A stretch of 64,000 bases of DNA from an uncultured Pseudomonadales bacterium (GTDB taxonomy: Bacteria; Pseudomonadota; Gammaproteobacteria; Pseudomonadales; Azotimanducaceae): positions 2,030,132-2,094,131 of the forward strand of contig OY282519.1 of NCBI GenBank assembly GCA_958296405.1, read 5' to 3'. A program made the translations under genes and the position numbers. Numbering within the stretch: the stretch's first letter is position 1; every line of letters begins with the position of its first letter. This document shows, piece after piece, positions 4,772 through 18,708 of this stretch. The notes beneath the pieces are model-generated. The model saw only the letters and a list, made by a program, of their open reading frames with translations, was not told the origin of the DNA and made no database searches.

Positions 4772-6022
4772 ATGCCAGAACCGCGCCGCGTGAGGTACTT
4801 CCACGGCTGGAACGTCGTGGCGTTCACCCTCGTCATCCAAGCCGTCACCATCGGCATATCGATCTACAGCTTCGCGCTGTTTGTGGTGCCGTGGCTCACT
4901 GAGTTCGAGGTTGAGCGCACCGAGGTGATGCTGGCGATATTCCTGCTGCAGATGAGCTTCGGCGCCATCAGCCCGCTGTGCGGGCGGTTGCTGGACCGCT
5001 TCCCGATGCGGGCGCTGGTGATGATCGGCGGCGCCGCGACGGCCGCTGGGCTCCTCGCCATGTCCTTCGCAACCGCGCTGTGGCAGATCGTGCTCATCCA
5101 TGTGACGCTGCTGCCGCTGGGCATGGTGCTTGCCGGCACCTTGGCGTCGCAAACCATGGTGACCAAGTGGTTTGTCGCCAAGCGCGGCCTCGCCATCGGC
5201 ATCTCGACGATGGGCACATCGCTTGGCGGATTCGCCTTTCCGCTGATTACGGCATTCCTGATCGGCGCGCGGGGCTGGCAGGACACGCTGCTTGTCCTCG
5301 CTGCCATCGCGCTGGCGCTCACGGTGCCGGCTGCGTTTTTCGTGTTGCGTCGCCAGCCGCCGACGATTGAGCGCACCGGCCGCCCCGCGGTGCAAAACCT
5401 TGAGGCGAAGCAATTCCTCCGTTCACGGTCGTTCTGGATACCGATCGTCTGTTTCGTGCCCGTGAACGCAGCGTTCGGGGGCGTGCAGTTCAGCTTGGGC
5501 GCTTACGTTTTCGACCTCGGCTTTGAGCAGGGCATGGCGGCTAACCTCATCGCCATCACGTCCGTCGCAATGATCGCCGGCAAGTTCACGTTCGGCAGCT
5601 TGGGCGACCATGTGGACCATCGCAGGCTGTATTGGGTGGTGACGACCAGCCTCGCCGCCGCGCTGCTCTGCTACAGCTTCGCGCCGAGCCGGGCGGGCCT
5701 CATCGCGGCGGCCGCGCTGCAGGGGTTCGCCACGGGCGGCGTGCTGCCGCTCCTGAGCGTGATGTATGCAGAGCGCTTCGGCGTCGCGTCATTCGGCCGC
5801 GTGATGGGCTGGGTGAACCTTTTCGTGATGGTGGGCAGCGCGGGCTCCCTCTACTCGGGTTGGGTTTTCGACTTGACGGGCAGCTATCAACCGGCGTTCC
5901 TGACGTTCTTGGCCGCGCTGGCGCCGGCTGCCGTTCTGATGGCATGGCTGCCCACAGGAGGCTCAGGCGTCGCTGCGAAAACCAACGGAGGTCAGCCCCG
6001 GCAGGCAGTGGAAAGACGCTGA
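4772..6022 (+). CDS. MFS transporter (monocarboxylate/oxalate-formate antiporter type)
   Basis: This 416-aa protein has about 12 hydrophobic segments and the two six-helix halves of the major facilitator superfamily, with a central cytoplasmic loop near residues 195-215. It starts MPEPRRVRYFHGWNVVAF; the FHGW/WxVV start followed by a first helix is typical of the monocarboxylate-porter-like and oxalate/formate antiporter-like MFS subgroup. PLCGRLLDRFPMR near residue 70 is the loop 2-3 motif. It likely moves a small organic acid across the inner membrane; the substrate cannot be told. It lies on the same strand as the hydrolase, 112 bases downstream, and could be cotranscribed. Confidence 0.85.
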   Translation: MPEPRRVRYFHGWNVVAFTLVIQAVTIGISIYSFALFVVPWLTEFEVERTEVMLAIFLLQMSFGAISPLCGRLLDRFPMRALVMIGGAATAAGLLAMSFATALWQIVLIHVTLLPLGMVLAGTLASQTMVTKWFVAKRGLAIGISTMGTSLGGFAFPLITAFLIGARGWQDTLLVLAAIALALTVPAAFFVLRRQPPTIERTGRPAVQNLEAKQFLRSRSFWIPIVCFVPVNAAFGGVQFSLGAYVFDLGFEQGMAANLIAITSVAMIAGKFTFGSLGDHVDHRRLYWVVTTSLAAALLCYSFAPSRAGLIAAAALQGFATGGVLPLLSVMYAERFGVASFGRVMGWVNLFVMVGSAGSLYSGWVFDLTGSYQPAFLTFLAALAPAAVLMAWLPTGGSGVAAKTNGGQPRQAVERR

Positions 6023-6195
6023 ACGAGTTCTTGCCACAGGGCGTTGGTTGATTGGAAGCCTCCCCCGCATGGAGGGCGAGCACAGCCTTTCTGCGACGCG
6101 CCACGCGCCACCTCTCTGCCCCGCGGTGCCCGCTTCCCGCGACGCTAACCGACTAGCTGCGTGGCTGGCTGCCGCTGGCCACGCCACCAGCCGAG

Positions 6196-6230
6196 GGCGA
6201 CAGCCTGGCGCGCCGCGGCAGGCTGTCGCC
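6196..6230. terminator. Perfect 12-bp hairpin between convergent genes
   Basis: GGCGACAGCCTG at 6196-6207 and CAGGCTGTCGCC at 6219-6230 form a perfect 12-base-pair stem with an 11-base loop. It lies between the ends of the MFS gene (plus) and the urate-hydroxylase-like gene (minus). No clear U tract follows on either strand, so it may be an mRNA 3' stabiliser or a bidirectional terminator that is not classic rho-independent. The rest of the 233-base gap shows nothing recognisable. Confidence 0.6.
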
Positions 6231-6255
6231 AAGGCGTTGCTCAATGACGAGTTCG

Positions 6256-7071
6256 TCAACCCCCGCTCTGTGGAGTTTCCATGAGCGCATCGGTCCCGTC
6301 GCCGTCTCCAGCGGCTTCGCCAACCTCTGCTGGAACTTCCGAGGCCGCTTCATGCGTTTCCTCGGCGTGGGGCTGGGCTGGGTGCGTGTGCGTGTGCGTG
6401 TCGAAGCCGATGACCAATGCCATCACCACGGTCAGCAGAACGCTCGAGTAGATGACGCCTTTCACCGTTGCGATCGGCCCCGTCTTGCCCCAAATCGCGT
6501 TGGCCTCAATGGCGGTGATGATGGCGACGCCGATCCACATGCTCAGGCTGCCAAGTTCTCCCGGCAGGTGGACGCCTTGGGCGTGGCTGTAGCTGATCAT
6601 CAAGTAGAGCATCGGCAGCGACAGCAGCGTGTTGGTGCGTGATGCAAGCAGGGCCGTCGCCGCCGCCGACCCTTGGTTCGGGTCCGCTGCGCCGCCATCG
6701 CGCACGGCTTCGTTGGAGGCGATCACCACCTTTTGATTCGGCCAGATGATGAGCCAGACGTTCAGGAACATCACGATGGCCATCACTGAGCCAAGGACGA
6801 TGCCGACGGAAAGGCCTCGGTGGATGAAGAGCAGCAGCACCAAGCCAGTCAGGAAGGTCATCATGGCCGACCAGCGGAACCACCACAGCGCGCGCGGCAC
6901 GAGTTTCGTGAAGGCATCCACCCGGCCCTCGTCCGACGCCGCGGCCATGTAGGCGCCTTGGACGAAGTTGAAGTAGTACAGCAAGCCGATCCACGCGATG
7001 CCGAACACCACATGGCCCCAGCGGAACAGGAAGGGGGATGTGTCGATCAGGACATGCATCAAGGAATCCAT
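6256..7071 (-). CDS. PuuD-like (urate hydroxylase membrane domain) integral membrane protein
   Basis: This 271-aa protein has about six to seven membrane segments. The signature parts HVVFGIAWIGLLYYFNFVQ near residue 20, ALWWFRWSAMMTFLTG near 65 and NVWLIIWPNQKVV near 105 match the membrane domain (DUF989) of bacterial urate hydroxylase PuuD. In the characterised fusion form a C-terminal cytochrome c follows. Here no CxxCH is present. Instead there is a His/Glu-rich tail (FDTHTHTHPAQPHAEETHE) and then a low-complexity acidic end. It may therefore rely on a separate cytochrome or have another role. An xdhC gene lies 12 kb away, but no other purine-catabolism gene is seen. The start is ATG at 7071. 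Confidence 0.75.
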   Translation of the reverse strand: MDSLMHVLIDTSPFLFRWGHVVFGIAWIGLLYYFNFVQGAYMAAASDEGRVDAFTKLVPRALWWFRWSAMMTFLTGLVLLLFIHRGLSVGIVLGSVMAIVMFLNVWLIIWPNQKVVIASNEAVRDGGAADPNQGSAAATALLASRTNTLLSLPMLYLMISYSHAQGVHLPGELGSLSMWIGVAIITAIEANAIWGKTGPIATVKGVIYSSVLLTVVMALVIGFDTHTHTHPAQPHAEETHEAASEVPAEVGEAAGDGDGTDALMETPQSGG

Positions 7072-7224
7072 CAAGGTGCCTCACTCACGCAGTGAACTCG
7101 TCTGAATCATAGCAGAGCCTTGCAGCCGTTCGCCCGCAGTTCGCTCGCCGGCTTGGAGGCGGCTTGTGTCGCGCCTAGGCGGGCGGTTCGTCAAGGACGA
7201 AACATGGCGCCCGCCCGGCTGGCG

Positions 7225-8097
7225 TCATCGCTCGCGTTCGATCATGCCTCGGGCGAGCGCCGCCAATGCGTCCGCGCGGCTGCCGAAGATGGTGAGCGCG
7301 TCGAGGGCTTGGCGCAGTTGCCGATGCGCGGCCTCGCGCGCGCCGGCCACGCCGAGTACGCTCGCATAGGTGGGCAGGCCGCGTTGCGCGTCCGATCCAG
7401 CGGGTTTGCCGAGGCCGGCTTTGCCGGTGGCGTTCAAGACGTCGTCCTGAATCTGAAAGCCGAGCCCCACCGCCGCGCCGTAAGCGTCCAAGGCGGACAC
7501 CTCGGTTTCCGACAGGTTGCCGGCGGTGGCGCCAATGGCCACCGACGCGTGGATGAGCGCACCGGTCTTGCCGCGATGCCGCGTTTCGAGCTGCGTCTCG
7601 GTGGACGGCTTTGCCGCGCTTTCGATGTCCAGGGTTTGGCCGCCGGCCATGCCGGCGGCGCCGGCAGCGTCGGCGAGCAACTGCACCCAGTGGCGCACGA
7701 CGGTTGCCTCGGCCGGCGCCGCGGCGAGGGTCGCGAAGGCCGCCGATTGCAGCGCGTCTCCCGTCAAGATGGCGATGGCCTCGCCAAAGCAGGCATGCAC
7801 TGTCGGCTTGCCGCGCCGCAGATGGTCGTCGTCCATGGCCGGCAAGTCATCATGGACGAGCGAGGACGCATGGATGAACTCCACCGCGGCGCCGGCATGA
7901 TCCAACGTCGCCGACGGGGCATCAGCGATGGCGCCGGCTGCATGCACCAGACGGGGTCGAACCCGCTTGCCGCCGCTCAACACCGCGTAGCGCATCGCTT
8001 CCGCCAGCGTCGCCGGCGCCGTTTGCGTCGGCAGCAGCCGGGTCAAGGTGGCGTCAATGCGCGAGAGGTCATCCATGCGGGTTGCGCGGCGGGGCAT
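7225..8097 (-). CDS. ispA: Polyprenyl diphosphate synthase (farnesyl/geranylgeranyl diphosphate synthase type)
   Basis: This 290-aa all-alpha trans-prenyltransferase makes FPP or GGPP from IPP and an allylic diphosphate. It has GGKRVRPRLVHAAG (IPP binding) near residue 45, the first Asp-rich motif SSLVHDDLPAMDDD near 85, RRGKPTVHACFG, a KTGALIHASV motif and the second motif FQIQDDVLNATGK near 220. These match IspA. The start could also be the ATG seven codons in (8076). It is the last gene of a minus-strand group whose upstream members are a class II terpene-cyclase-like gene and an NHLP-type precursor. It may therefore serve isoprenoid housekeeping, that pathway, or both. In many Gammaproteobacteria ispA neighbours xseB and dxs; neither is here. 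Confidence 0.88.
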   Translation of the reverse strand: MPRRATRMDDLSRIDATLTRLLPTQTAPATLAEAMRYAVLSGGKRVRPRLVHAAGAIADAPSATLDHAGAAVEFIHASSLVHDDLPAMDDDHLRRGKPTVHACFGEAIAILTGDALQSAAFATLAAAPAEATVVRHWVQLLADAAGAAGMAGGQTLDIESAAKPSTETQLETRHRGKTGALIHASVAIGATAGNLSETEVSALDAYGAAVGLGFQIQDDVLNATGKAGLGKPAGSDAQRGLPTYASVLGVAGAREAAHRQLRQALDALTIFGSRADALAALARGMIERER

Positions 8098-8154
8098 CCA
8101 AGCAGCGTAACCGAACTCGGCGGCAATGAACTCTTGAGCTTGGGGCGCTGGCCG

Positions 8155-9129
8155 TCAGCCGCCAGCTTGTGCTTCGGGGTGGCGCGCGACGCGCTCCAAC
8201 GCTTCCACGCAGCACGCGGTGGTGAGCGTTGCCGATTCGAAGCTAAAGGGTTGGGCAGGCCCGCCGATCCAAGCGAGGCCGGCTGGCCAAGAGCCGTCCT
8301 CGCGTTGCGCCGCAAGCACACATTCCAGCGCCGGCCGCACCACGTCGTCCCGATCCAGGGCGCCCAAGCGATCCAACGCAGACAGCGCCTGCGCCGTGCG
8401 CAGCACATCGACGAAGGCGCCGGTGGCGTCTTGGCAGCCGAGGGTTTGGCGCAAGACCGGCTCGCGCAGTTCGCCGAGCGTCGGCGCTTTGGCCTCGCTG
8501 GCCCTTGCGATGGCCACGTAGAGGTCGAGCGGGTGCGGGTAGTAGTGCAGGACTTCGGCCTGCTCATCGGGCGACGCGGCCATCAGTTCCTTGAGCCAGC
8601 CTTGGGCGGCGCGGGTCTCTTCCACGTCTCCCAAACAGGCGATCACGTTGGCGTTCACCACGGCGTCGGGTTCGTTGAAGAGCGTCACAGCATCCTCTGG
8701 CCCTGGGATCCAAGTGAGAAAGTGGCCTTGGGCATTCCGCGGCGCCGCCGTGAGCGCATCGCTGGGTCCCGGCTGATCGTCCTCGGCAAGCGCGAGGCCG
8801 CAAATGGAGGTGTCGTCCGCATCTGGCGGCACGAACTGGGCATAGCGCCAGCGGCCGGTCGGTTCCCTGGTCGCGCGCAGGAAGGCCAAGGTGCGCTCCC
8901 GCAGCGGTGCGGCCTCCGGATGCTGGCAGGCGGCGAGCGACATCGCCCCAAGCGCGGCGACAAAGGGCGTGTAGTGCGTGACGACCCCTCGTATCGGGTC
9001 GTGGCTCCAGAACACGCTCGATGGCCAAGCGCCGGTCGTGTCCACCGCGTGCGAGAGATAACCCACGCCGGCGCCGATGGCCGCCTGAAGCGCCGCACTC
9101 AAATCCTCATGCATGGAGCGTGTCCCCAT
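8155..9129 (-). CDS. Class II terpene cyclase-like (squalene-cyclase-fold) protein with DxDD motif
   Basis: This 324-aa protein resembles the alpha-alpha barrel repeats of squalene-hopene and class II diterpene cyclases. PPDADDTS at about residues 101-108 contains DADD, which matches the DxDD catalytic acid motif (as in DVDDTA or DIDDTA), and AAQREDGSWPAG near 270 looks like a QW motif. It is about half the length of squalene-hopene cyclases, so it would form a single barrel domain. Family knowledge would suggest protonation-initiated cyclisation of a prenyl chain, or a prenyltransferase-repeat scaffold without activity. The neighbours are a prenyl diphosphate synthase 58 bases downstream and an unrecognised gene plus an NHLP-type peptide precursor upstream. 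The substrate is not known. An alternative start is ATG at 9114. Confidence 0.65.
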   Translation of the reverse strand: MGTRSMHEDLSAALQAAIGAGVGYLSHAVDTTGAWPSSVFWSHDPIRGVVTHYTPFVAALGAMSLAACQHPEAAPLRERTLAFLRATREPTGRWRYAQFVPPDADDTSICGLALAEDDQPGPSDALTAAPRNAQGHFLTWIPGPEDAVTLFNEPDAVVNANVIACLGDVEETRAAQGWLKELMAASPDEQAEVLHYYPHPLDLYVAIARASEAKAPTLGELREPVLRQTLGCQDATGAFVDVLRTAQALSALDRLGALDRDDVVRPALECVLAAQREDGSWPAGLAWIGGPAQPFSFESATLTTACCVEALERVARHPEAQAGG

Positions 9130-9226
9130 TCTTGTTCCGCTTCACCCAGCCGATGCATTGCCAGTGTGCCGCCCGTGGCGGCCGGAGTGGCCACGATGCA
9201 CGATGGCATTCCACTTGCCGCAACCA

Positions 9227-10264
9227 TCACGGTGGCCGGGCGTAGAGCACGCCCCCGTATGCCTTGGCAGTTGGTTGCTCGTGTGGCGCCGCCGCAAGCA
9301 ACGTGAGCTTGATGTGGTTGATGCCCCGTTGCAGGACGGCCATCCCCTCGTCGTCGTAGAGCCGTTCCAATGCGCACCAATCGAGCAGCGCGGCCGCCTT
9401 CGCGGGCCGGCACCAGCCGCGTTCGACCAACTCCGCCACCACCGGGCGCCAAGTGGAGCTCGTCGTGGTCAGCCAGCTATCGAATTGGTCCGCCGTGCGC
9501 TTGGCGAACAACTCAAAGCCGATGCGCGGCAACACGCCTGCCGCCAGCACGTCCAAGGCGAAGCGGAACCGCGGCAACACGGGACGCAGTTCGTCCAAGA
9601 GGCGCGCCGCTGCGTCGGACGCGCCGCCCCAGCCGAGCTGCCTGAGCGCGGCCGCCGCTTCGCCATGTTCAATGCGGTCGACGATGAGGCGCACCGCGCG
9701 CAATGGGCGGCCTGGCAGGGCGCCGATGAAGTCCACGGCGCTGGCAGGCGGGAGCGATGCCAAGGTGCGCTTGACGGCGCTTCCCAAATCGCCGCCGCCG
9801 TCCCAGCCCACCGCGCCGGCGAGGCTTGCGAGGGCCCGCTCGCGCTGGGCTGCAGGGGAGTCTGGGCGGAGCGGCTCGTGCAGCTTGAAGAACACGCCGG
9901 GCGGCGGGCGCTCGTCGTCAGGAACCTCGGCGACGTCGTACTCGAGGCCAGTTAGGTCCACCACTTCACGCAGTGCGGAATCGGCGTCGGCGAGGGCTTG
10001 CAAATGGCGGGCCAAGGCGCCCGGCGGCGATGTGGCGGGAGCGGATTCCCCTTGAGCGATGAAATGCCGCCCGACCGGCAGGTCTGGCTCCGCCGCGACG
10101 AACAGGTCGGCTGCCGCCTCTTCCACGCCAAGGCGGAACTCGAACCCGCAGTACTCCGGCACATACGCCGGCAGGTCTTGCACGCGAGCGAACAGCCGCT
10201 GCCATCCAGCGTCATCGAGCAGGGCGGGGGGCAAGAAGGGGCGCAGTTCCGAGATGACCTTCAT
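9227..10264 (-). CDS. Unrecognised 345-aa protein in the NHLP peptide / terpene-cyclase group
   Basis: I do not recognise a characterised family. The protein is soluble, without signal peptide or membrane segments. The N-terminal half holds EYCGFEFRLGVEEAAADLF and GRHFIAQGE. The middle shows GALPGRPLRAVRLIVDRIE. The C-terminal part has RIGFELFAK, then W-rich STWRPVVAELVERGWCRPAKA, and ends GINHIKLTL and AKAYGGVLYA. The ordered conserved-looking aromatic and charged motifs suggest an enzyme or a substrate-binding protein, not a structural filler. It sits between the precursor peptide gene (75 bases upstream) and the cyclase-like gene (97 bases downstream) on the same strand. A role in modifying or binding the precursor is inference from position only. 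Confidence 0.7.
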   Translation of the reverse strand: MKVISELRPFLPPALLDDAGWQRLFARVQDLPAYVPEYCGFEFRLGVEEAAADLFVAAEPDLPVGRHFIAQGESAPATSPPGALARHLQALADADSALREVVDLTGLEYDVAEVPDDERPPPGVFFKLHEPLRPDSPAAQRERALASLAGAVGWDGGGDLGSAVKRTLASLPPASAVDFIGALPGRPLRAVRLIVDRIEHGEAAAALRQLGWGGASDAAARLLDELRPVLPRFRFALDVLAAGVLPRIGFELFAKRTADQFDSWLTTTSSTWRPVVAELVERGWCRPAKAAALLDWCALERLYDDEGMAVLQRGINHIKLTLLAAAPHEQPTAKAYGGVLYARPP

Positions 10265-10338
10265 CGGCCTATTCGGTGGCAGGTTTTGTTGAGTGCAACC
10301 GGTGTCGGGTGGCCCACCCGATGCGCGGGCTGGCTGGC

Positions 10339-10638
10339 CTAGTGGCTGTGGGGGACGATCCGCGACGGCCCGTAGATACCGGCCGTTTGCAGATGGCCTC
10401 CGGCCACCGCTGCAAGGTCGTCCTCATTCAAGCTGGCCATCGGTGGCAGCACGAGGTGCGCCGACATCTCGGTGTCCTCGTGGACATGGATGGCGATGGA
10501 GTCCGGCAACTCGATGCCAAGCGCGTCCTTGATCGCAGACTTCGGGTCGTCGACGAGACGGCTGCGGAACTCATCGTCCGTGACGGCCTTGTCGATCAGG
10601 TCCGCCCGCAGTTCGGAATGGGACTTGGTGCTCTCCAT
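10339..10638 (-). CDS. NHLP-type (nitrile-hydratase-leader) RiPP precursor peptide
   Basis: This 99-aa peptide shows the layout of the nitrile-hydratase-like leader peptide family. It has an N-terminal helix with ELRADLIDKAVTDDEFRSRL, then DPKSAIKDALGIELP, a strand IAIHVHEDTEMSAHLVLPP, and LNEDDLAAVAGG ending at residue 81. The GG is the usual leader cleavage site. The rest, HLQTAGIYGPSRIVPHSH (82-99), would be the core. It has no Cys, one Thr, two Ser, three His and one Tyr, so lanthipeptide or thiazole chemistry is not strongly suggested. GAGGAAAC sits six bases before the ATG and a good promoter lies upstream. No LanM, YcaO, radical SAM or NHLM transporter gene is visible nearby. The leader family call is firm; the product chemistry is open. 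Confidence 0.85.
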   Translation of the reverse strand: MESTKSHSELRADLIDKAVTDDEFRSRLVDDPKSAIKDALGIELPDSIAIHVHEDTEMSAHLVLPPMASLNEDDLAAVAGGHLQTAGIYGPSRIVPHSH

Positions 10639-10668
10639 GGAAGTTTCCTCCGCACTTTCGTGATGCGC

Positions 10669-10697
10669 ACAATGCGCCGGCAACTGATGCGTGTCAA
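10669..10697 (-). promoter_or_regulatory. Sigma-70-like promoter of the NHLP precursor gene
   Basis: Reading the minus strand, a perfect TTGACA -35 (10697-10692) is followed by a 17-base spacer and CATTGT (10674-10669) as a weak -10. Transcription would start about 25 bases before the precursor ATG at 10638. The perfect -35 with a poor -10 is often seen at activator-assisted promoters. Confidence 0.5.
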
Positions 10698-10809
10698 ATC
10701 GGCGCGAGCCAATGTCCCAACGGAGATCAGAGGTGCCCCTGCCATCGCGTTGAGTGCCTTGGACGTCGCCGGCGGCGGCAAGGGGCAACGCGGGCCACGC
10801 CAGCGCGCG

Positions 10810-11892
10810 TCAAGCGAACCCTTGGACGCGGGCGGCTTCCTCGCGCACACGCTCCGGGCCGCCGAGGGTCTGCCGGTTGAAGCCAATGCGCTTGAACCAG
10901 TAGTGCAGGCCAAGGAGGTCTGTGAAGCCCATGCCGCCGTGTACCACGGTGGCGGTGCGCGCCACGAACTCGCCGGTCTCGGCGAGGTGGGCCTTCACAT
11001 GGCAAGCGGTGAGGCGTCCCTCTTCCGGCACTTCGTCCAAAGCGTGGGCGGCGTACCACACCAGCGCTCGGCTTGGTTCGATGGCCGCGGCCATCTCGGC
11101 GCACAGGTGCTTCACGGCCTGAAACGAGGCGATGACGCGATTGAACTGCTCGCGCTGCTTGGCGTAATCCACGGCTTGGTCGAGCATGTTCTGCGCCGCG
11201 CCTAACGTGTCCGCGGCCTGCACGACCCGCCCGACGTCGATCACGGCGCGGCAGGCTTCGCCATCGGCGCTGCCGGGCAGCAACTCCGCCGGCGTCGAAT
11301 CGAACGTGAGCTCAGCCATCCGCTGCGTGCGATCGACATGCGGCAAGGGGTTGACGCCAAGCCCGGCGGCGCCGCGTGCGACGATGTGCAGGCGCCGTTC
11401 GCCATCCGCCACCAAGAACATGTCGGCGTCTGCGTCGAGGGCGAAGAGCGAAGTGCCGGCCAGCTTGCCGTTCGCCGCCGTCACCCCGGCAGCGCCGCGG
11501 GCGCCGCACGCTTCGGCCAACGCCGCGCCAATCCGCAAGCTGCCGTCTGCGATGCGTGGCAGCCATTGCGCTTGTTGGGCGGTGTCTCCGGCGGTGCGCA
11601 GCGCTGTCACGGCGAGCACTGCGGTCGTCAAGAACGGCGCCGGCGCGACATGGGCGCCCAAGCACTCGGCGACCACCGCGGCATCCAGCGTCTTGAGGCC
11701 GATGCCACCATGCGCCTCCGGCACGAGCAACGCGGCGACGCCCAGCTCGGCGAGGCCGGCCCAGATGTCGGCGCCGACATCTTCCGCATCGTCCGCGTAC
11801 TTGCGCACCCGGTCGAGCTTCGCGTTGTCGTCGAGGAACCGGTTGATGGTCTCTTGCAGCAGGGTTTGCTCTTCGGAAAGCCCAAACTCCAT
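10810..11892 (-). CDS. Acyl-CoA dehydrogenase, small-subunit type (PimD-like)
   Basis: This 360-aa flavoprotein family member begins MEFGLSEEQTLLQETINRFL (N-terminal helical domain), has a middle beta domain around residues 125-215, and ends with the C-terminal helical domain QAVKHLCAEMAAAIEPSRAL and HGGMGFTDLLGLHYWFKRI. It lies one base after the stop of another acyl-CoA dehydrogenase gene. Such pairs often form heteromeric dehydrogenases acting on CoA esters of dicarboxylic acids, sterol side chains or aromatic-ring-derived acids. A canonical catalytic Glu cannot be placed confidently. The pathway substrate is unknown, and no thiolase or hydratase genes adjoin. Confidence 0.87.
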   Translation of the reverse strand: MEFGLSEEQTLLQETINRFLDDNAKLDRVRKYADDAEDVGADIWAGLAELGVAALLVPEAHGGIGLKTLDAAVVAECLGAHVAPAPFLTTAVLAVTALRTAGDTAQQAQWLPRIADGSLRIGAALAEACGARGAAGVTAANGKLAGTSLFALDADADMFLVADGERRLHIVARGAAGLGVNPLPHVDRTQRMAELTFDSTPAELLPGSADGEACRAVIDVGRVVQAADTLGAAQNMLDQAVDYAKQREQFNRVIASFQAVKHLCAEMAAAIEPSRALVWYAAHALDEVPEEGRLTACHVKAHLAETGEFVARTATVVHGGMGFTDLLGLHYWFKRIGFNRQTLGGPERVREEAARVQGFA

Positions 11893-11893
11893 G

Positions 11894-13090
11894 TCAGGCC
11901 TCCGCCTTCACGATGGCCTTGGGCTCCCGAGGCATCCCCAAGCCGCGTTCGCTGATGATGTTCTTCTGGATCTGCGAGGTGCCGCCGCCGATGATGAGGC
12001 CCAGGAAGTACATGTATTGGTTCTGCCAACTGCCCTGATCCCGAACGTGGGGATGCTTGCCGTACAGCAGCCCGAACTCGCCCATCACGTCGATGGCGAA
12101 GCCTTCCAACTCGTGGCGCAGCTCGGTGGCCTGCAGCTTGGTGATCATGCGCGCGAGGCCGGCGTCGGCGCCATTGAGTCGCGCCGAAAGGATGCGCAGG
12201 TCGTTGAAGCGCATCGCCATCACCCGCGCTTGGAACTTCATCAGGCGGTCTCGCAGAGCGGGGTTGTCCATCGGCCGGGCGCCATCCACGGTCTCGGTCT
12301 GCATGAGGTGGATCAGCCGGTTCAGGCGCGACAGGCTCGCGTTCGGGTCGCCCAAGGACTCGCGCTCGTGGCCGAGCACGGCGTTTGCCACGCGCCAGCC
12401 TTCGCCCCGGTGGCCGACGATCTGCTCCTTCGGCACGCGCACGTCCGTGAAGAACACTTCGTTGAAGTTTGGCTGCATCGTCATGTCCACCAGCGGGCGG
12501 ATTTCGATGCCCGGCGTGTCCATGCGCAGCAGCAGGAAGCTGATGCCTTGGTGCTTCGGCGCATCCGGCTCGGTGCGCACGAGGCAGAACATCCAATCCG
12601 CGAGGTGGGCGGTGGATGTCCAAATCTTCGAGCCGTTGATCACCCAATCGTCGCCGTCGAGTACCGCGGAGGTGCGCAAGCTGGCGAGGTCTGACCCTGC
12701 ATTCGGCTCTGAGTATCCTTGGCACCAAACGAACTCGCCGGTGAGCGTTGGCCGAATGAACTCCTGTTTTTGCGCCTCGCTGCCGAGCTCCAGCAAGGTG
12801 GGCACCAACATGGAGATGCCTTGGCCGCTCAGCCCAGTGGACACCTGCCCCGCGGCGAACTCCTCGCCGATGATGCGCCCCTTCAAGATGTCCGGCTCGG
12901 CGCCGTAGCCGCCGTACTCCGTCGGGATGGTGCGGGCGGCGTAGCCATGTTGAATCAAGAGCTGCTGCCACTCCTTCACGCGCGGCGAGCGCACCCCTTG
13001 CTGCGCCGGCGCCAAGTGCTTGTGCTTGGCGATGAAGCTGCGCACTTCTTGGCGAAAATCGTCGTACTCTGGGCCGTATGACAGGTCCAT
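11894..13090 (-). CDS. Acyl-CoA dehydrogenase, large-subunit type (PimC-like)
   Basis: This 398-aa protein starts MDLSYGPEYDDFRQEVRSFI with GGAGAAGGG just before the ATG; longer in-frame versions lack support. It has GYSEPNAGSDLASLRT near residue 130 (the FAD/substrate middle-domain signature), INGSKIWTSTAHLADWMF, and a C-terminal helical domain ending YGKHPHVRDQG and GGTSQIQKNIISERGLGMP. This is a full-length FadE-type dehydrogenase that would transfer electrons to ETF. It is immediately followed by a shorter paralogue (1-base gap), so a two-subunit enzyme is likely. Confidence 0.9.
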   Translation of the reverse strand: MDLSYGPEYDDFRQEVRSFIAKHKHLAPAQQGVRSPRVKEWQQLLIQHGYAARTIPTEYGGYGAEPDILKGRIIGEEFAAGQVSTGLSGQGISMLVPTLLELGSEAQKQEFIRPTLTGEFVWCQGYSEPNAGSDLASLRTSAVLDGDDWVINGSKIWTSTAHLADWMFCLVRTEPDAPKHQGISFLLLRMDTPGIEIRPLVDMTMQPNFNEVFFTDVRVPKEQIVGHRGEGWRVANAVLGHERESLGDPNASLSRLNRLIHLMQTETVDGARPMDNPALRDRLMKFQARVMAMRFNDLRILSARLNGADAGLARMITKLQATELRHELEGFAIDVMGEFGLLYGKHPHVRDQGSWQNQYMYFLGLIIGGGTSQIQKNIISERGLGMPREPKAIVKAEA

Positions 13091-13187
13091 CCCTTCTCCC
13101 CGCCGGTCGATGGCGGCCAGTCTACTGCAACCTTGCGGCGTTCGCGCAATCACGGGCAGGCGCTGCCAGCCACGCCAGGCGAGCGGC

Positions 13188-13817
13188 GTGACCGGCTACG
13201 CGGCGCAACTGCGCGAGATGGCGGCCATGCAGGCGCGCTACAACCGCGAGCTTCACCCACAGTGGCAAAAGCAGGGCTTCGCCTTCCATCGCGCGGTGTG
13301 GATCGAGTGCGCGGAACTGTTGGACCATTACGGTTGGAAGTGGTGGCAGCATCAGGTGCCGGCGCTCGCCCAAGTGCGGTTGGAACTCGTTGACATTTGG
13401 CACTTCGGCTTGTCGGATTTGCTGTGCGCCGGCGCCGTGGACGACGCGCTCGCCGCGCGCATGGCGGCGTTGAGCGATCCCTCTGGCGGGCAGGACTTCC
13501 GCGCCGCAGTGGAGGCGCTGGCGCTCACCAGCCTGCGCGACCAGCGCTTCGACGTGGATGCCTTCGTGCTGGCCATGAACGCGCTGCCCATGTCCCTTGA
13601 TGACCTGCACTTGGCCTACATCGGCAAGAACGTGCTCAACTCCTTCCGCCAAGCGCATGGCTACCGCGATGGCAGCTATGTGAAGGCTTGGGATGGCCGC
13701 GAAGACAATGAGCACTTGGTCGAGCTGGCCGCGCAGTTAGACCCGGCCAGCGGGACGTTCACGGCAGATTTGAGGGCAGCGCTCGAAGCGCGCTACGCGC
13801 AACTCGTCGCGTCGTGA
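13188..13817 (+). CDS. Dimeric-type dUTPase (dUTP diphosphatase, all-alpha NTP pyrophosphatase)
   Basis: This 209-aa protein matches the all-alpha dimeric dUTPase family that hydrolyses dUTP to dUMP and pyrophosphate. Near residue 25 it has HRAVWIECAELLDHYGWKWW and then QVRLELVDIWHFGLSDLL. Together these supply the metal-binding Glu/Glu (ExxEL) and Glu/Asp (ExxDI) residues. YIGKNVLNSFRQAHGYRDGSY near 145 is the C-terminal nucleotide-binding segment. I start it at GTG 13188, because longer versions would overlap the divergent acyl-CoA dehydrogenase. Its stop overlaps the next gene's GTG start, indicating translational coupling. This family is common in some proteobacteria, trypanosomes and phages in place of trimeric Dut. 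Confidence 0.85.
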   Translation: MTGYAAQLREMAAMQARYNRELHPQWQKQGFAFHRAVWIECAELLDHYGWKWWQHQVPALAQVRLELVDIWHFGLSDLLCAGAVDDALAARMAALSDPSGGQDFRAAVEALALTSLRDQRFDVDAFVLAMNALPMSLDDLHLAYIGKNVLNSFRQAHGYRDGSYVKAWDGREDNEHLVELAAQLDPASGTFTADLRAALEARYAQLVAS

Positions 13818-14839
13818 GCGGCTTGGCGGTGCGCTTGGCGGCGCCCTATCTCGTCTTCATCGGCGACGCCAAGGATGCGCTGGCGGTGAAGACTGGCCAA
13901 GGCGTCGTCGACTGGCGGCGCGATCGGTGCTTGGGGCAGCTGCGGCTGCCGGCGTGCGCGGCGAACCTCGGCTTGCCGGACATGACCATTGCTGAGGCGG
14001 CGGCACATGGTGCGAAGACGCTGGTCATCGGCGTGGTGAATCCGGGCGGCGTGTTGCCGGCGCATTGGGCGCCGGTGCTGGTGGAGGCGCTGCAGCGAGG
14101 GCTCGACGTGGCGAGCGGCCTGCACACGCGGCTTGGCGACGTTGAGGCGGTGCGCATCGCGGCCGAGCGGCACGGCCGGCGGCTCATTGATGTGCGCTTG
14201 AGCGAGGTGCAGTTTGCCACCGGCAAGGGCGTGAAGCGTTCAGGCCGGCGCTTGCTCACCGTGGGCACGGATTGCGCCGTCGGCAAGAAATACGCGGCCC
14301 TCTCCATCGAGCGGGCGCTGCGTGAACGCGGCGTCCAAGCAGATTTTCGCGCCACGGGCCAAACTGGCATCCTGATTGCCGGCGCCGGCGTGGCGGTGGA
14401 CGCCGTGCCGGCTGATTTCATCGCCGGCGCCGCGGAAGCCTTGACGCCGGCGGCTGCGCCCGACCACTGGGACATCGTGGAGGGGCAGGGCTCCTTGTTC
14501 CACCCTTCGTTCGCCGGGGTCTCGCTGGGCTTGTTGCATGGTGCCCAACCCGACGCCTTCGTGGTGTGCCACGAGCCAACCCGCGCCACGATGCGCAACG
14601 TGGCGACGCCGATGCCCTCGGTGAGCGCGGTGATCGACCTGACGCGCTCCTTGGGGCGCTTGATCAATCCAGACGTTCGCTGCGTGGGCGTGGCGGTCAA
14701 CACGGCCGCGTTGGCGGAGGCGGATGCGCGGCGGCATCTTGAAGCTTGCGCTCAAGAGTTGGGTTTGCCGGCGACAGACCCGATGCGTTTTGGCGTGGCG
14801 CCAATCATCGAGCGGCTTGGGCAAGTGTTTGGCCTGTGA
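13814..14839 (+). CDS. DUF1611 family protein (DgcN-like, D-glutamate N-acetyltransferase type)
   Basis: This 341-aa protein has an N-terminal Rossmann-like domain (YLVFIGDAKDALAVKTGQG) and a C-terminal P-loop-like domain with TVGTDCAVGKKYAALSIERAL near residue 155 and DIVEGQGSLFHPSFAGVSLGLLHG near 225. That layout is typical of DUF1611. One member, DgcN, N-acetylates D-glutamate in a D-amino-acid catabolic route where DgcA then racemises. The dgcA-like epimerase is not next to it here, so the role remains tentative. The GTG start overlaps the dUTPase stop by 4 bases. No signal peptide. Confidence 0.78.
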   Translation: MSGLAVRLAAPYLVFIGDAKDALAVKTGQGVVDWRRDRCLGQLRLPACAANLGLPDMTIAEAAAHGAKTLVIGVVNPGGVLPAHWAPVLVEALQRGLDVASGLHTRLGDVEAVRIAAERHGRRLIDVRLSEVQFATGKGVKRSGRRLLTVGTDCAVGKKYAALSIERALRERGVQADFRATGQTGILIAGAGVAVDAVPADFIAGAAEALTPAAAPDHWDIVEGQGSLFHPSFAGVSLGLLHGAQPDAFVVCHEPTRATMRNVATPMPSVSAVIDLTRSLGRLINPDVRCVGVAVNTAALAEADARRHLEACAQELGLPATDPMRFGVAPIIERLGQVFGL

Positions 14840-14868
14840 TGCGGTGCATGAGCGGTGGGGGGGCTTCT

Positions 14869-15531
14869 CTAGCGCTTCATCGCCAGCGTCAGCCCATCGC
14901 CGACGGGCAGCATGGCGGCATCAACCCGCGCGTCGGCGCGCACCTTCTCGTTCAGTGCGCGGATGGCTTGGGTGGCAGGGTCTGATTGGGTGGGATCTGC
15001 CACGCGGCCGCCCCACAGCACGTTGTCGATGGCGACTACGCCACGGTGCTTCAGCAGGGTGAGGCAGCGCTCGTAGTAGCTGTCGTAGTTCTCTTTGTCC
15101 GCGTCGATGAAGGCGAAATCGAAGGTGCCGGATTCGCCGGCCGCAATGAGGGCGTCCAGCGTCTCGATGGCCGGCGCCAGCCTGAGGTCGATCTTGTCGG
15201 CGACGCCTGCCGCGGCCCAATGGCGCTGCCCCACAGCCGTCCATTGCGCGGACACGTCGCAGGCCACGAGGCGCCCGTCCGGTGGCAGAGCCTGTGCCAC
15301 CATCAGCGCGCTGTAGCCGGTGAACGTGCCCACCTCAAGGGTGCGCCGCGCGTCGATGAGCTTGACCAACAGCGCCATGAAGGCACCTTGCTCCGGCGAC
15401 ACCTGCATGCCGCTCACGCGGCCAAGCTCCTGCGTCTCTTCCCGGAGACGCCGCGCGGCCGGGGATTCCGCCGCGCCGAGCAAAAGGTACTCGCTCAGCG
15501 CCGCTGTCATCTGAATCGAGTGGCTGGACAT
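14869..15531 (-). CDS. Class I SAM-dependent O-methyltransferase (CCoAOMT/COMT-like)
   Basis: This 220-aa protein is of the caffeoyl-CoA/catechol O-methyltransferase type. It has SPEQGAFMALLVKL, the SAM-binding RRTLEVGTFTGYSALMVAQAL near residue 60, the acidic VACDVSAQW and the metal/substrate segment FDFAFIDADKENYDSYYERC near 135, followed by GVVAIDNVLWGGRV. Such enzymes are Mg-dependent and methylate catechol-like hydroxyls; the bacterial substrate is usually unknown. The ATG at 15531 has GGAG six bases upstream. It follows the methylmalonyl-CoA epimerase gene by about 11 bases, so they are probably cotranscribed. Confidence 0.88.
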   Translation of the reverse strand: MSSHSIQMTAALSEYLLLGAAESPAARRLREETQELGRVSGMQVSPEQGAFMALLVKLIDARRTLEVGTFTGYSALMVAQALPPDGRLVACDVSAQWTAVGQRHWAAAGVADKIDLRLAPAIETLDALIAAGESGTFDFAFIDADKENYDSYYERCLTLLKHRGVVAIDNVLWGGRVADPTQSDPATQAIRALNEKVRADARVDAAMLPVGDGLTLAMKR

Positions 15532-15542
15532 TCGCGTCTCCG

Positions 15543-16019
15543 TCAATCGGCGTCAGTTGGCGACTCTGGCGCCGCCTCACGCTCCCAATAGGGCCGGTTG
15601 TTCAATGGCCCCAACGTCTGGCCGAGTTGGATGAGCACCCCGTGGGCGCTGCGCGGCGAGATGAACGCGCCGATGTTGCCGGGGTCGTCGAACTCTTTGT
15701 CGACGACGCGAATCCCAGCCGCCTCAAGGGCCTCTGCCTTATGCGCTAGATCGGGCGTCTGCAGGGTGATGTGGTGGACGCCTTCGCCCCGCTGCGCCAA
15801 ATGTTTGGCGAGAAAGCCGTTTTCGTTGGTGGGCTCCAAGAGCTCGATGCAGAACTCGTGCAGGTCGAGGATGGCGAGGCGGAAGCCGCCGTCCGGCCGC
15901 TCGACCGTCTGGCGCAGTTTGGCGCCCAAGGCTTGGGTGAAGAACGGCAGCGCCTTGTCGATGCTGTGAACGGCGATGCCGATGTGGTCGAGTCGGCCAA
16001 TGGGTGCTGGGTCTGTCAT
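15543..16019 (-). CDS. mce: Methylmalonyl-CoA epimerase
   Basis: This 158-aa VOC-fold protein interconverts (2R)- and (2S)-methylmalonyl-CoA in propionyl-CoA metabolism. Family marks are RLDHIGIAVHSID (His ligand) at the N-terminus, FCIELLEPTNEN, GVHHITLQTPD and GVLIQLGQT near the end, with metal ligands expected from His, His and Glu. The length is typical of the family apart from a ~15-residue tail. A carboxylase beta subunit gene of the propionyl-CoA type lies in the same window at 22.4 kb, which fits a functional propionate route, but no mutase gene is seen here. Confidence 0.87.
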   Translation of the reverse strand: MTDPAPIGRLDHIGIAVHSIDKALPFFTQALGAKLRQTVERPDGGFRLAILDLHEFCIELLEPTNENGFLAKHLAQRGEGVHHITLQTPDLAHKAEALEAAGIRVVDKEFDDPGNIGAFISPRSAHGVLIQLGQTLGPLNNRPYWEREAAPESPTDAD

Positions 16020-16065
16020 CGGGTTTGTTCCCTTCGGCAGTCAATGGGTGTTGCGTGTGGCGGCA

Positions 16066-18708
16066 TCACGGCGCTTCGGCCAGCGCCTTGGAGACCACCT
16101 CGCGCAAGTTCGGCGACAGGTCTCCGTCGGCGAGTGTCGCCAAGTTGCCCCGCATCAAACGGCCGCGGTCGGCATTGTGCTGTCGCCATCGGGTGAGGGG
16201 CGTGGCGAGGCGCGCCGCGATGTTCGGGTTCTTTGCGTCGAGCCGGGCGACGCGCTCGCGCAGGAAGTGATAGCCGGCGCCGTCCTCGGCATGGAAGTTC
16301 GGCACGTTGCCGCAGAAGGCGCCAATGAGCGCGCGCACCTTGTTGGGATTGTCTGCGTCGAAGACGGGATGCCGCTCCAGCGCTCGCACCAGCGACAGCG
16401 CCCCGGGGGCCTCGCTGCCCGCCTGCAGGCGCAGCCAGATGTCCACCAGCAGCGGTTGATCTCCCCAATTTGCGTAGAAGGCGTCGCAAATCGCTTGCCG
16501 ATGCGCCGCGGTGACGGTGGGCAGGTTCAAGAGCGCCGCCAAGGCGGCAACGCGGTCGGTCAGATTGTCGGCGTTGGCGAGCTGCGCCTCCAAGCGGCTC
16601 GCCCCGTCCACCGCGGCGAGCGCGTGCATGGCGAGCGCGTGGTTCTTGAGTTGCCGCCGCGCGAAGGCGGGTGCCGTCGTCTCGTAGCCGCTTTGCTCCA
16701 CGTTGCCTTCGTAGAGCGCGAGCCAGCGGTCTTCGAAGCGCTCGGCGAGCCGGTGGCGCAGGGCGTCGCGCCGGCGCTGCCAACGCAGGATGTCCGTGCC
16801 TGGGTTTTGCTCCAGCAGGTATTGCGCCCGCGGCAAGCGCATGGCCACCACCAACAGCGCCTTCGCCTCGCCATCGTCCGGCGCCTCTGCGGCGGCGTCG
16901 AGCAGCGTGTCGAAGACGGCTTCGACGTCCGCGTTCAGGCCATCGCCCTCGTCGGCGTCGGCAATGGCAGCGGTCAATAGGGACAGGGCGGCATCGCAAC
17001 GGGCGAAGCCGTCTGGATCTCGGGCGGCCAAGAAGGCCAAGTCTGCCGCGGGGCGTGGGTATCGCACCTTCACCGGCGCCGAGAAGCCGCGCAGGAAACT
17101 GACGCGGGCGTCTGCCGGGGCGTTCTCGAGGCGCAGCGCAGTGCGCCGTTCCACAAGGTGCGCGACCAAGGTGCCATCCGCGTTCGGGCGCTCCACGCGC
17201 GCATCGCTGGTCATCTCCACGGTGGTGCCGGCCAGCAGGTCCTCGCCGCCGGGGCCAACCAACCCCAACGCCAGCGGGATGTGGAAGGGCGCCTTCTCCG
17301 GCTGGCCAGGCGTGGGCGGGCACGCCTGCTCGACGGTGAGTGACAGGCCGCCTGCGTCGCGGCGCTCCGTCACGGTGAGCGTCGGGGTGCCGGCCTGCGC
17401 GTACCAACGCCGGAACTGCGTGAGATCGACGCCGGAAGCGGATTCCATGGCGGCGGCGAAGTCTTCGATGGCGACGGCCTGCCCATCGTGGCGCTCGAAG
17501 TAGAGGTCGCAACCGGCGCGGAAACGCTCGGCGCCGAGCAGCACGGACATCATGCGGATGACCTCGGCGCCCTTCTCGTAAACCGTCGTCGTGTAGAAGT
17601 TGTTGATTTCCTCGTATGAATCCGGCCGCACCGCGTGTGCCAAGGGGCCCGCGTCCTCGGGGAACTGCACGTCGCGGAGGAACTCCACGGCCTCTAGGCG
17701 CCGCACAGTGGGGGAGTTCATGTCGGCGCTGAACTCGGCGTCCCGATACACGGTGAAGCCTTCCTTCAGGCTCAGTTGAAACCAATCCCGGCAGGTGACT
17801 CGGTTGCCGCTCCAATTGTGGAAGTACTCGTGGGCGACCACCGCCTCCACGCGCTGGTAGCCGGCGTCCGTGGCGGTGTTTGGGGAAGCCAGCACGCAGT
17901 TGGTGTTGAAGATGTTGAGGCCCTTGTTCTCCATCGCGCCGGCGTTGAAATCCTCCACGGCGACGATCATGAAGATGTCGAGATCGTATTCGCGCCCGAA
18001 GCGCTCTTCGTCCCACCGCATGGCGCGCTTCAAGGCGCCCATGGCGTAGCCGCATTGGTCGATCAGGTGCGCCGGCGCGTAGATGCGCAGCGCCACCTCG
18101 CGTCCGGAGCGCGTGACGAAGGTGTCCTCCAACGCCGCGAGGTCGCCAGCGACCAGCGCAAACAGGTAGCTGGGCTTGGGGAATGGGTCTTCCCACGTCA
18201 CGGTGCGGCGGCCGTCGCGCACCGCGTCATGCACGAGGTTTCCGTTGGAGAGCATCACTGGATGCGCTGCGGCATCGGCGGTGATGGTGGTGGTGAAGCG
18301 CGACAGGACGTCGGGCCGGTCTGGGTAGTACACCATGCGGCGAAAGCCCTCCGGCTCGCACTGGGTGCAGTAGATGCCGCCAGACTTGTAAAGGCCCTCA
18401 AGGGCCTTGTTTCGCTCCGGTTCGATGCAGGTGCGCACTGTCACCACGCAGCGGCGCGGCACGTCGAAGAGGGTGAGCGACTCGTCATCCACCGCGAACT
18501 CGTTGTCGCCGAGCTCGCGCCCATCCACGGCGACGCCTTCAAACAACAAATCCTCGCCCGCAAGCCGCAGCGCCCCGCCGGGGCCGTCGAAGTGCAGGTC
18601 TGCCCGCACGGTGGCAAAGCCGTCGCGGAGGTCGAAGGCCAAATGCGTTGCGTCCAGCCGGAACGGATAGGGTTCGTAGTCCTGCCGAAGGGTCACGGGG
18701 TTCTGCAC
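16066..18708 (-). CDS. pepN: Aminopeptidase N (M1 family zinc metallopeptidase)
   Basis: This 880-aa protein is very close to the E. coli PepN length. It has NAGAMENKGLNIF (exopeptidase motif) near residue 258 and VVAHEYFHNWSGNRVT with HExxH near 292, followed by the distal Glu in LKEGFTVYRD. It starts MQNPVTLRQDYEPYPFR from GTG at 18708, where GGAG lies six bases upstream; longer frames upstream lack family similarity. It cleaves N-terminal amino acids from peptides in the cytoplasm. A FYTTTVYEKGAEVIRM segment carries the catalytic Tyr region. All key residues appear intact. Confidence 0.95.
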   Translation of the reverse strand: MQNPVTLRQDYEPYPFRLDATHLAFDLRDGFATVRADLHFDGPGGALRLAGEDLLFEGVAVDGRELGDNEFAVDDESLTLFDVPRRCVVTVRTCIEPERNKALEGLYKSGGIYCTQCEPEGFRRMVYYPDRPDVLSRFTTTITADAAAHPVMLSNGNLVHDAVRDGRRTVTWEDPFPKPSYLFALVAGDLAALEDTFVTRSGREVALRIYAPAHLIDQCGYAMGALKRAMRWDEERFGREYDLDIFMIVAVEDFNAGAMENKGLNIFNTNCVLASPNTATDAGYQRVEAVVAHEYFHNWSGNRVTCRDWFQLSLKEGFTVYRDAEFSADMNSPTVRRLEAVEFLRDVQFPEDAGPLAHAVRPDSYEEINNFYTTTVYEKGAEVIRMMSVLLGAERFRAGCDLYFERHDGQAVAIEDFAAAMESASGVDLTQFRRWYAQAGTPTLTVTERRDAGGLSLTVEQACPPTPGQPEKAPFHIPLALGLVGPGGEDLLAGTTVEMTSDARVERPNADGTLVAHLVERRTALRLENAPADARVSFLRGFSAPVKVRYPRPAADLAFLAARDPDGFARCDAALSLLTAAIADADEGDGLNADVEAVFDTLLDAAAEAPDDGEAKALLVVAMRLPRAQYLLEQNPGTDILRWQRRRDALRHRLAERFEDRWLALYEGNVEQSGYETTAPAFARRQLKNHALAMHALAAVDGASRLEAQLANADNLTDRVAALAALLNLPTVTAAHRQAICDAFYANWGDQPLLVDIWLRLQAGSEAPGALSLVRALERHPVFDADNPNKVRALIGAFCGNVPNFHAEDGAGYHFLRERVARLDAKNPNIAARLATPLTRWRQHNADRGRLMRGNLATLADGDLSPNLREVVSKALAEAP

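Follow-up and report, generated by a model that had tools for sequence, protein, structure and literature searches.

A gene block that may encode a RiPP-isoprenoid pathway with separate parts in an uncultured gammaproteobacterium

The genome of an uncultured Pseudomonadales bacterium (assembly GCA_958296405.1), a single contig of 3.83 Mb from a gammaproteobacterial order, carries a block of four genes in which a peptide precursor adjoins terpene-type enzymes. The block lies within a 64,000-nucleotide stretch of contig OY282519.1 (positions 2,030,132 to 2,094,131 of the forward strand), henceforth termed the window. All four genes are on the minus strand. The first encodes a 99-amino acid (aa) NHLP-type precursor (10339..10638) of a ribosomally synthesized and post-translationally modified peptide (RiPP). 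It is followed by a 345-aa protein termed U345 (9227..10264), which has no curated family and is a possible peptide prenyltransferase of the alpha-beta-beta-alpha type; by CYC (8155..9114), a single-domain class II terpene cyclase homologue of 319 aa, or 324 aa from another ATG at 9129; and by IDS (7225..8097), a putatively accessory isoprenyl diphosphate synthase of 290 aa. The intergenic gaps measure 74, 112 and 57 bp, and a promoter and terminator scan returned 0 promoters and 2 terminator-like sites, with 2.3 expected. A preliminary description of this DNA had proposed four neighbouring minus-strand genes, and all four are present in one same-strand block.

The entire block and its order are kept in a sister genome, OY282379.1 (locus L018), likewise from an uncultured Pseudomonadales bacterium, with 92-94% identity for U345, CYC and IDS and with two precursors, 87% and 75% identical to that of the window. 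Between the two genomes, ratios of nonsynonymous to synonymous substitution rates are 0.16 for U345, 0.25 for CYC, 0.19 for IDS and 0.23 for the precursor; comparison genes gave 0.19 (a flanking gene), 0.20 (a transporter) and 0.05 (a neighbouring acyl-CoA dehydrogenase). Since the sister genome keeps all four open reading frames (ORFs) with ratios of 0.16-0.25, they are not chance frames. The genes are under purifying selection and look like working genes.

The precursor scores 68.2 bits against TIGR03793, the NHLP family model (cut-off 50.9), and a VAGG stretch directly precedes its predicted 18-residue core, HLQTAGIYGPSRIVPHSH (10342..10395, minus strand), which is free of Cys and of Trp; an NHLP leader, a GG site and an 18-residue core without Cys had been read from this gene before. 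The precursor is one of a genome-wide set. The window genome holds 16 NHLP matches, of which 15 are above the cut-off and 15 have a core: ten form a tandem array, two lie near an NHLM exporter pair, one is in the window and three are elsewhere. Of the 14 matches in the sister genome, 12 have a core, one consists of the leader only and another is truncated. The pattern H-x(2-10)-Y-x(2-12)-H-x-H, which the window core matches, fits 26 of the 27 cores of the two genomes; Tyr occurs in 27/27, Cys in 0/27 and Trp in 11/27. Counted as unique cores, 21 of 22 fit, while within-core shuffles (n=5000) averaged 1.2 and never exceeded 6, a test that concerns residue order within cores and is no prediction, the pattern having been defined after the cores were viewed. 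Among eleven core pairs, picked by eye for similarity and partly non-independent, changes fell on 0 of 44 motif positions and on 28 of 163 other core positions. As far as examined, these His-Tyr-HxH cores go with the window-type block, because in G076, a genome of the window's genus, the four NHLP precursors that pass the cut-off carry Cys-rich cores instead, and the U345 copies are different. Three of the family's 21 genomes have NHLP matches above the cut-off, and all three are U345-positive. We also observed a leader-only NHLP ORF without core at L028:9306-9512 (68 aa, ending LPPDKE), adjoining an Asn-synthase-domain gene; the leader-only ORF of the sister genome (L110) likewise has no core and ends LPPEKE, and the 3.2 kb examined near it contained no Asn-synthase match.

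CYC can be assigned to the class II terpene cyclase homologues with good support. Searched against PDB sequences, a six-member CYC profile matched drimenol synthase (9mhs, E 9.8e-13), AstC (22ty, 1.6e-8) and squalene-hopene cyclase (3sqc, 4.7e-7), with a weak match to MstE (0.03). CYC is related to these enzymes by profile and motif and differs from them in being one short domain encoded in RiPP loci, in some cases C-terminal to an NHLP-like leader. Its putative catalytic acid motif, DADDT (aa 98-102; 8809..8823, minus strand), falls in register with DLDTT of drimenol synthase in the profile alignment. D-x-D-x-T is invariant in 6/6 aligned CYC members, as DADDT in the window, DTDDT in L038 and DLDST in proteins fused to a leader, and is present also in the plasmid-borne relative L062. 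A QW-like motif, QREDGSW (aa 270-276; 8287..8307, minus strand), lies further downstream; DADD and a QW-like motif had been named in the earlier description. The single window sequence reached 23.5 bits against the Pfam squalene-hopene cyclase C-terminal model SQHop, below the cut-off of 26.1, and a structure prediction from two rows (window and L018) had a pLDDT of 36.5.

U345, by comparison of its window sequence with Pfam and NCBIfam, has no match at E<=1, in agreement with its earlier characterization as a protein without recognisable family; scanning 16 family members yielded weak matches, each to one member only (best E 0.006). Homologues share 21-31% identity. Of 194 genomes in the order six encode one, as do 4 of 369 genomes of the class (the window's own included in both counts), 1 of 299 genomes at the phylum level (solely the window's own) and 4 of 72,556 plasmid records. 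Scans of viral contigs found no relative. Five positions are invariant (P32, G181, R192, L207 and H317), and E42, L45, D53, E108, D110, F125, R186, G249, K319, K334 and Y336 are nearly so. The polar members include E42, D53, E108, D110, R186, R192, H317, K319, K334 and Y336, and polar residue sets of this kind line prenyltransferase barrels.

We examined 15 U345 loci: the window, L018-L024, L035-L038 and L058-L060. A RiPP precursor or maturase is found at 13 of them. An NHLP precursor, CYC and IDS accompany U345 in the window and L018; YcaO together with an AlkB/desaturase-like protein in L020, L021, L022 and L023 (YcaO by Pfam) and in L036 (62% identity); MNIO with a DUF2063 partner in L019; LanM in L035 (annotation), L058 (Pfam) and L059 (similarity); and radical SAM in L038 (Pfam) and L060 (annotation). 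The remaining two are L024 and L037. L024 contains an Asn-synthase-domain protein and a 295-aa protein without Pfam match; a reading of the L024 protein as HprK-like, made by eye, was dropped in view of no Pfam match at E<=1e-4. In L037, U345 adjoins an 839-aa protein (L037:5140-7659) that has a laminin-G-like domain and contains an NHLP-like stretch in its interior. Aromatic residues are frequent among U345-linked cores: besides the Tyr of all 27 cores above, seven of the eight Azospirillum precursors and the one from Pseudanabaena end in Trp, CCCW occurs in L020, L022 and L023, and Trp is present in L038.

Several of these neighbourhoods have further features of their own. The L019 locus (5420-17597), from the window's genus, encodes MNIO, DUF2063, a methyltransferase, two U345 copies, NHLM-type exporters and three NHLP precursors with short Cys-containing cores. 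On a plasmid of Azospirillum sp. B510 (L059:996-8947), eight NHLP precursors lie beside U345 and a LanM-like protein, and another protein of this locus is 41% identical to a Pseudanabaena U345 neighbour without Pfam match (L035:16754-18550). At L035:14974-16767, within a LanM/Nif11 locus, a U345 homologue is fused to a 2-oxoglutarate-Fe(II) oxygenase. The Acaryochloris homologue (L060:8751-9618) is split over two ORFs and possibly decayed.

CYC and U345 stand together at 6 of the 15 loci (window, L018, L020, L022, L023 and L038). The gene order thus recurs, in full in one near-identical genome and as U345 with CYC, without IDS, in four more. Four of the 194 genomes of the order have CYC, and all of these are U345-positive; the four are not independent, because all belong to one family. 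L038, from another order, has CYC beside U345 in a radical-SAM NHLP locus. In three genomes an NHLP-like leader is fused N-terminally to CYC (L020:12391-13692, L022:2626-3957 and L023:2899-4197), and the fusion genes adjoin YcaO, a desaturase-type protein, U345 and an ABC exporter. The fused leaders score 42.8 (L020), 36.5 (L022) and 44.6 bits (L023) against TIGR03793, all below the cut-off of 50.9, reach model position ~63 of 77 and have no GG end. The desaturase-type protein of L020 shows an additional weak GlnE match.

Three genes of the polyprenyl-synthase family PF00348 are present in the window genome. IDS passes the farnesyl diphosphate (FPP) synthase model NF045485 at 292.8 bits (cut-off 275); a second gene, adjoining xseB, passes it at 304.8 bits; and the third is of a longer-chain type by eye. 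FPP/geranylgeranyl diphosphate (GGPP) synthases are defined by two Asp-rich motifs together with a Lys in the K-x-TY stretch. In IDS the first motif is intact (DDLPAMDDD, 7825..7851), whereas the second reads DDVLN (7432..7446) and the Lys is lost in GLPTY (7366..7380), all on the minus strand; the xseB-linked gene has DDVLD and GKNTY, and the sister genome agrees with the window. The earlier assignment as an FPP/GGPP-type synthase therefore stands by the curated model but not by the full motif set. We call IDS accessory because it is an extra copy with altered motifs, and its product range or role may have changed.

Of the usual partners of NHLP precursors, LanM, YcaO, radical SAM and an NHLM exporter were not recognised among the 52 genes of the window, in which library scans covered the four block proteins. 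In the whole window genome, YcaO was not found in a search whose positive control worked, and a LanM domain was not found in a search in which the control genomes were silent too. An NHLM exporter pair is encoded elsewhere in the genome (L026), near two precursors: one member scores 902 bits against TIGR03796 (cut-off 853), and its partner, incomplete at the end of the stretch, 507 bits against TIGR03797 (cut-off 709).

Taken together, these data suggest that the four genes specify a RiPP-isoprenoid pathway whose parts are separate, a reading to which we give an even chance. With the order of steps and the chain length of the donor presumed, IDS would supply a prenyl diphosphate, the NHLP leader would recruit U345, and U345 would move the prenyl group to an aromatic core residue, most likely the Tyr present in every core. 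CYC would then protonate and cyclise the peptide-bound chain, and the NHLM exporter encoded elsewhere would cleave at the GG/AG site and export the product. The enzymes would act in trans on ~15 precursors dispersed over the genome; this set, rather than the lone neighbouring precursor first taken as the substrate, is what the genome suggests. The scheme proposed at the outset, in which the synthase makes the donor, the 345-aa protein attaches it and the cyclase folds the chain, is the reading with the most support, and precedents for it are in print, namely NctPC and the mpp cluster.

Cyclised isoprenoids on RiPPs have been described before (NctPC, ChrPC), and the gene content of the block fits a pathway of this kind. 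According to the account that PMC13290415 gives of Hubrich et al. (2024), NctPC is a fusion of prenyltransferase and cyclase. It combines a prenyltransferase with an MstE-like cyclase on a RiPP, and its transferase is of the alpha-beta-beta-alpha type suspected for U345 also (PMC13290415); compared by description, NctPC is fused and uses a Trp acceptor, whereas the window has two genes, an accessory synthase and a Trp-free core. Separate genes are known from the Moorena mpp cluster, with mppC for a prenyltransferase and mppD for a terpene synthase (PMC11791876), and prenylation by MppC depends on the leader (PMC12715784). The mpp cluster shares with the block this separation and a long-leader precursor, and differs in its Nif11 leader, LanM and halogenase, where the window has an NHLP leader and no such recognised maturase. 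PalQ prenylates the NHLP precursor PalX (PMC10853753) and so offers a case in which an isoprenoid enzyme acts on this precursor family; PalQ, however, is related to trans-isoprenyl diphosphate synthases (trans-IDS-like), is specific for a terminal Trp and belongs to a cluster described as three genes without a cyclase (PMC10853753). ChrPC again joins prenyltransferase and cyclase on a RiPP, with a trans-IDS-like P domain fused to the cyclase and a Trp acceptor (PMC13290415). For the precursor set, the prochlorosins offer a comparison, in that precursors of one leader family are served by one enzyme system; there, a ProcM-type lanthipeptide enzyme and Nif11 leaders take the place of NHLP leaders and the His-Tyr-HxH core (PMC10783134).

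Several observations weigh against the proposed pathway. As to U345, a crude alignment-averaged propensity estimate has helices alternating with strands, yet only three of the five expected strand pairs are at all clear, the first two pairs are partial, with helix called in place of the first strand of pair 2; applied to the NphB family, this method returns five pairs, some incomplete. U345 profiles had no match at E<=10 among PDB sequences, and hhalign of U345 against NphB or an NphB family of eight gave a probability below 1%. A profile-profile test gave z values of 1.5-2.3, every one of the three sets of 60 shuffles contained a score above that of the true alignment (reversed profile 39.4, local, vs 44.0), and a structure prediction from two rows (window and L018) reached a pLDDT of 38.4 and was unusable. 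Homology to prenyltransferases of the alpha-beta-beta-alpha type was not significant in these comparisons, which covered the NphB family and PDB sequences, NctPC and MppC not being included. Because the homology tests were negative or weak and the model unusable, we say that U345 may work like such an enzyme and do not place it as a member. As to the acceptor, some U345-linked cores are without an aromatic residue (ECIC, VCQC and CACM in L019, LCCC in L036), and an aromatic acceptor is therefore not general. As to the partners, IDS carries its two altered motifs in both genomes and occurs at only 2 of the 15 U345 loci (window and L018), and among 230 proteins called in U345/CYC neighbourhoods (L061 excluded) its sole relative is that of L018; it does not belong to the system in general. 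CYC in turn was not seen at 9 of the 15 loci, and CYC-like proteins without called U345 occur on two plasmids (L061, within a TPR protein, and L062).

That U345 lacks detectable homology, and that some of its loci have Cys-only cores, would also agree with U345 installing another, unspecified modification or acting as a generic partner to which the adjoining terpene-type genes merely add. We regard this as unlikely, given a terpene-cyclase homologue beside U345 at six loci, and a residue pattern and crude strand order that are compatible with a prenyltransferase barrel.

A division of labour in which the IDS homologue itself is the peptide prenyltransferase and CYC the cyclase, with U345 serving many RiPP maturation systems as an accessory protein for leader binding or scaffolding, appears more doubtful. 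It would account for the co-occurrence of U345 with four different maturase types, and for an IDS that keeps the first Asp motif but has lost the second in its usual form and the Lys in both genomes; the second Asp motif is reported to be repurposed in trans-IDS-like prenyltransferases (PMC13290415), for which PalQ and the ChrPC P domain are precedents as peptide-modifying enzymes. Against it, IDS scores above the curated FPP-synthase cut-off, no IDS relative lies beside U345 and CYC in L020, L022, L023 and L038 within the stretches examined, many charged residues are conserved in U345, and the characterised trans-IDS-like enzymes are, according to PMC13290415, all Trp-directed, while the window core has no Trp.

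The least probable reading is that IDS and CYC, which as prenyl diphosphate synthase and class II cyclase amount to a minimal terpenoid pathway, make a small free terpenoid beside an unrelated precursor and U345: adjacency to one precursor is weak evidence because precursors lie at several genome sites, and some CYC-like proteins (L061, L062) are encoded where no RiPP locus was recognised, yet U345 separates the precursor from CYC, three genomes have CYC fused to an NHLP-like leader, and all four CYC genomes of the order have U345.

A further-reaching version of the RiPP-isoprenoid pathway, which we hold to be improbable as a whole, would have the two genomes make combinatorial, Cys-free, Tyr-terpenylated peptides. 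In it, a split prenyltransferase-cyclase pair would act in trans on ~15 dispersed precursors; the invariant N-terminal His left after GG/AG cleavage would join the invariant Tyr and HxH in a metal site akin to a histidine brace; the products would be exported, membrane-anchored metallopeptides; and U345 would be a new peptide-prenyltransferase family common to YcaO, MNIO, LanM and radical-SAM RiPP systems.

In the papers searched, no description of the gene set of the block or of an H-Y-HxH NHLP core was found. The block differs from the published systems in that its genes are split, belong to a gammaproteobacterium and include an accessory synthase as well as a candidate prenyltransferase that neither Pfam nor NCBIfam covers. 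Relatives have leader-cyclase fusions, and the precursors, dispersed and Cys-free, share a His-Tyr-HxH pattern that is nearly invariant. These dispersed precursors with one core pattern constitute a natural substrate panel for acceptor choice. The leader-cyclase fusions would, if the proposed pathway is true, connect a terpene-cyclase homologue directly with the maturation of peptides guided by a leader. U345 would then represent an unannotated peptide-prenyltransferase family across several RiPP classes and, since it recurs across these classes, isoprenoid-decorated peptides would be more widely spread than the few described cases.

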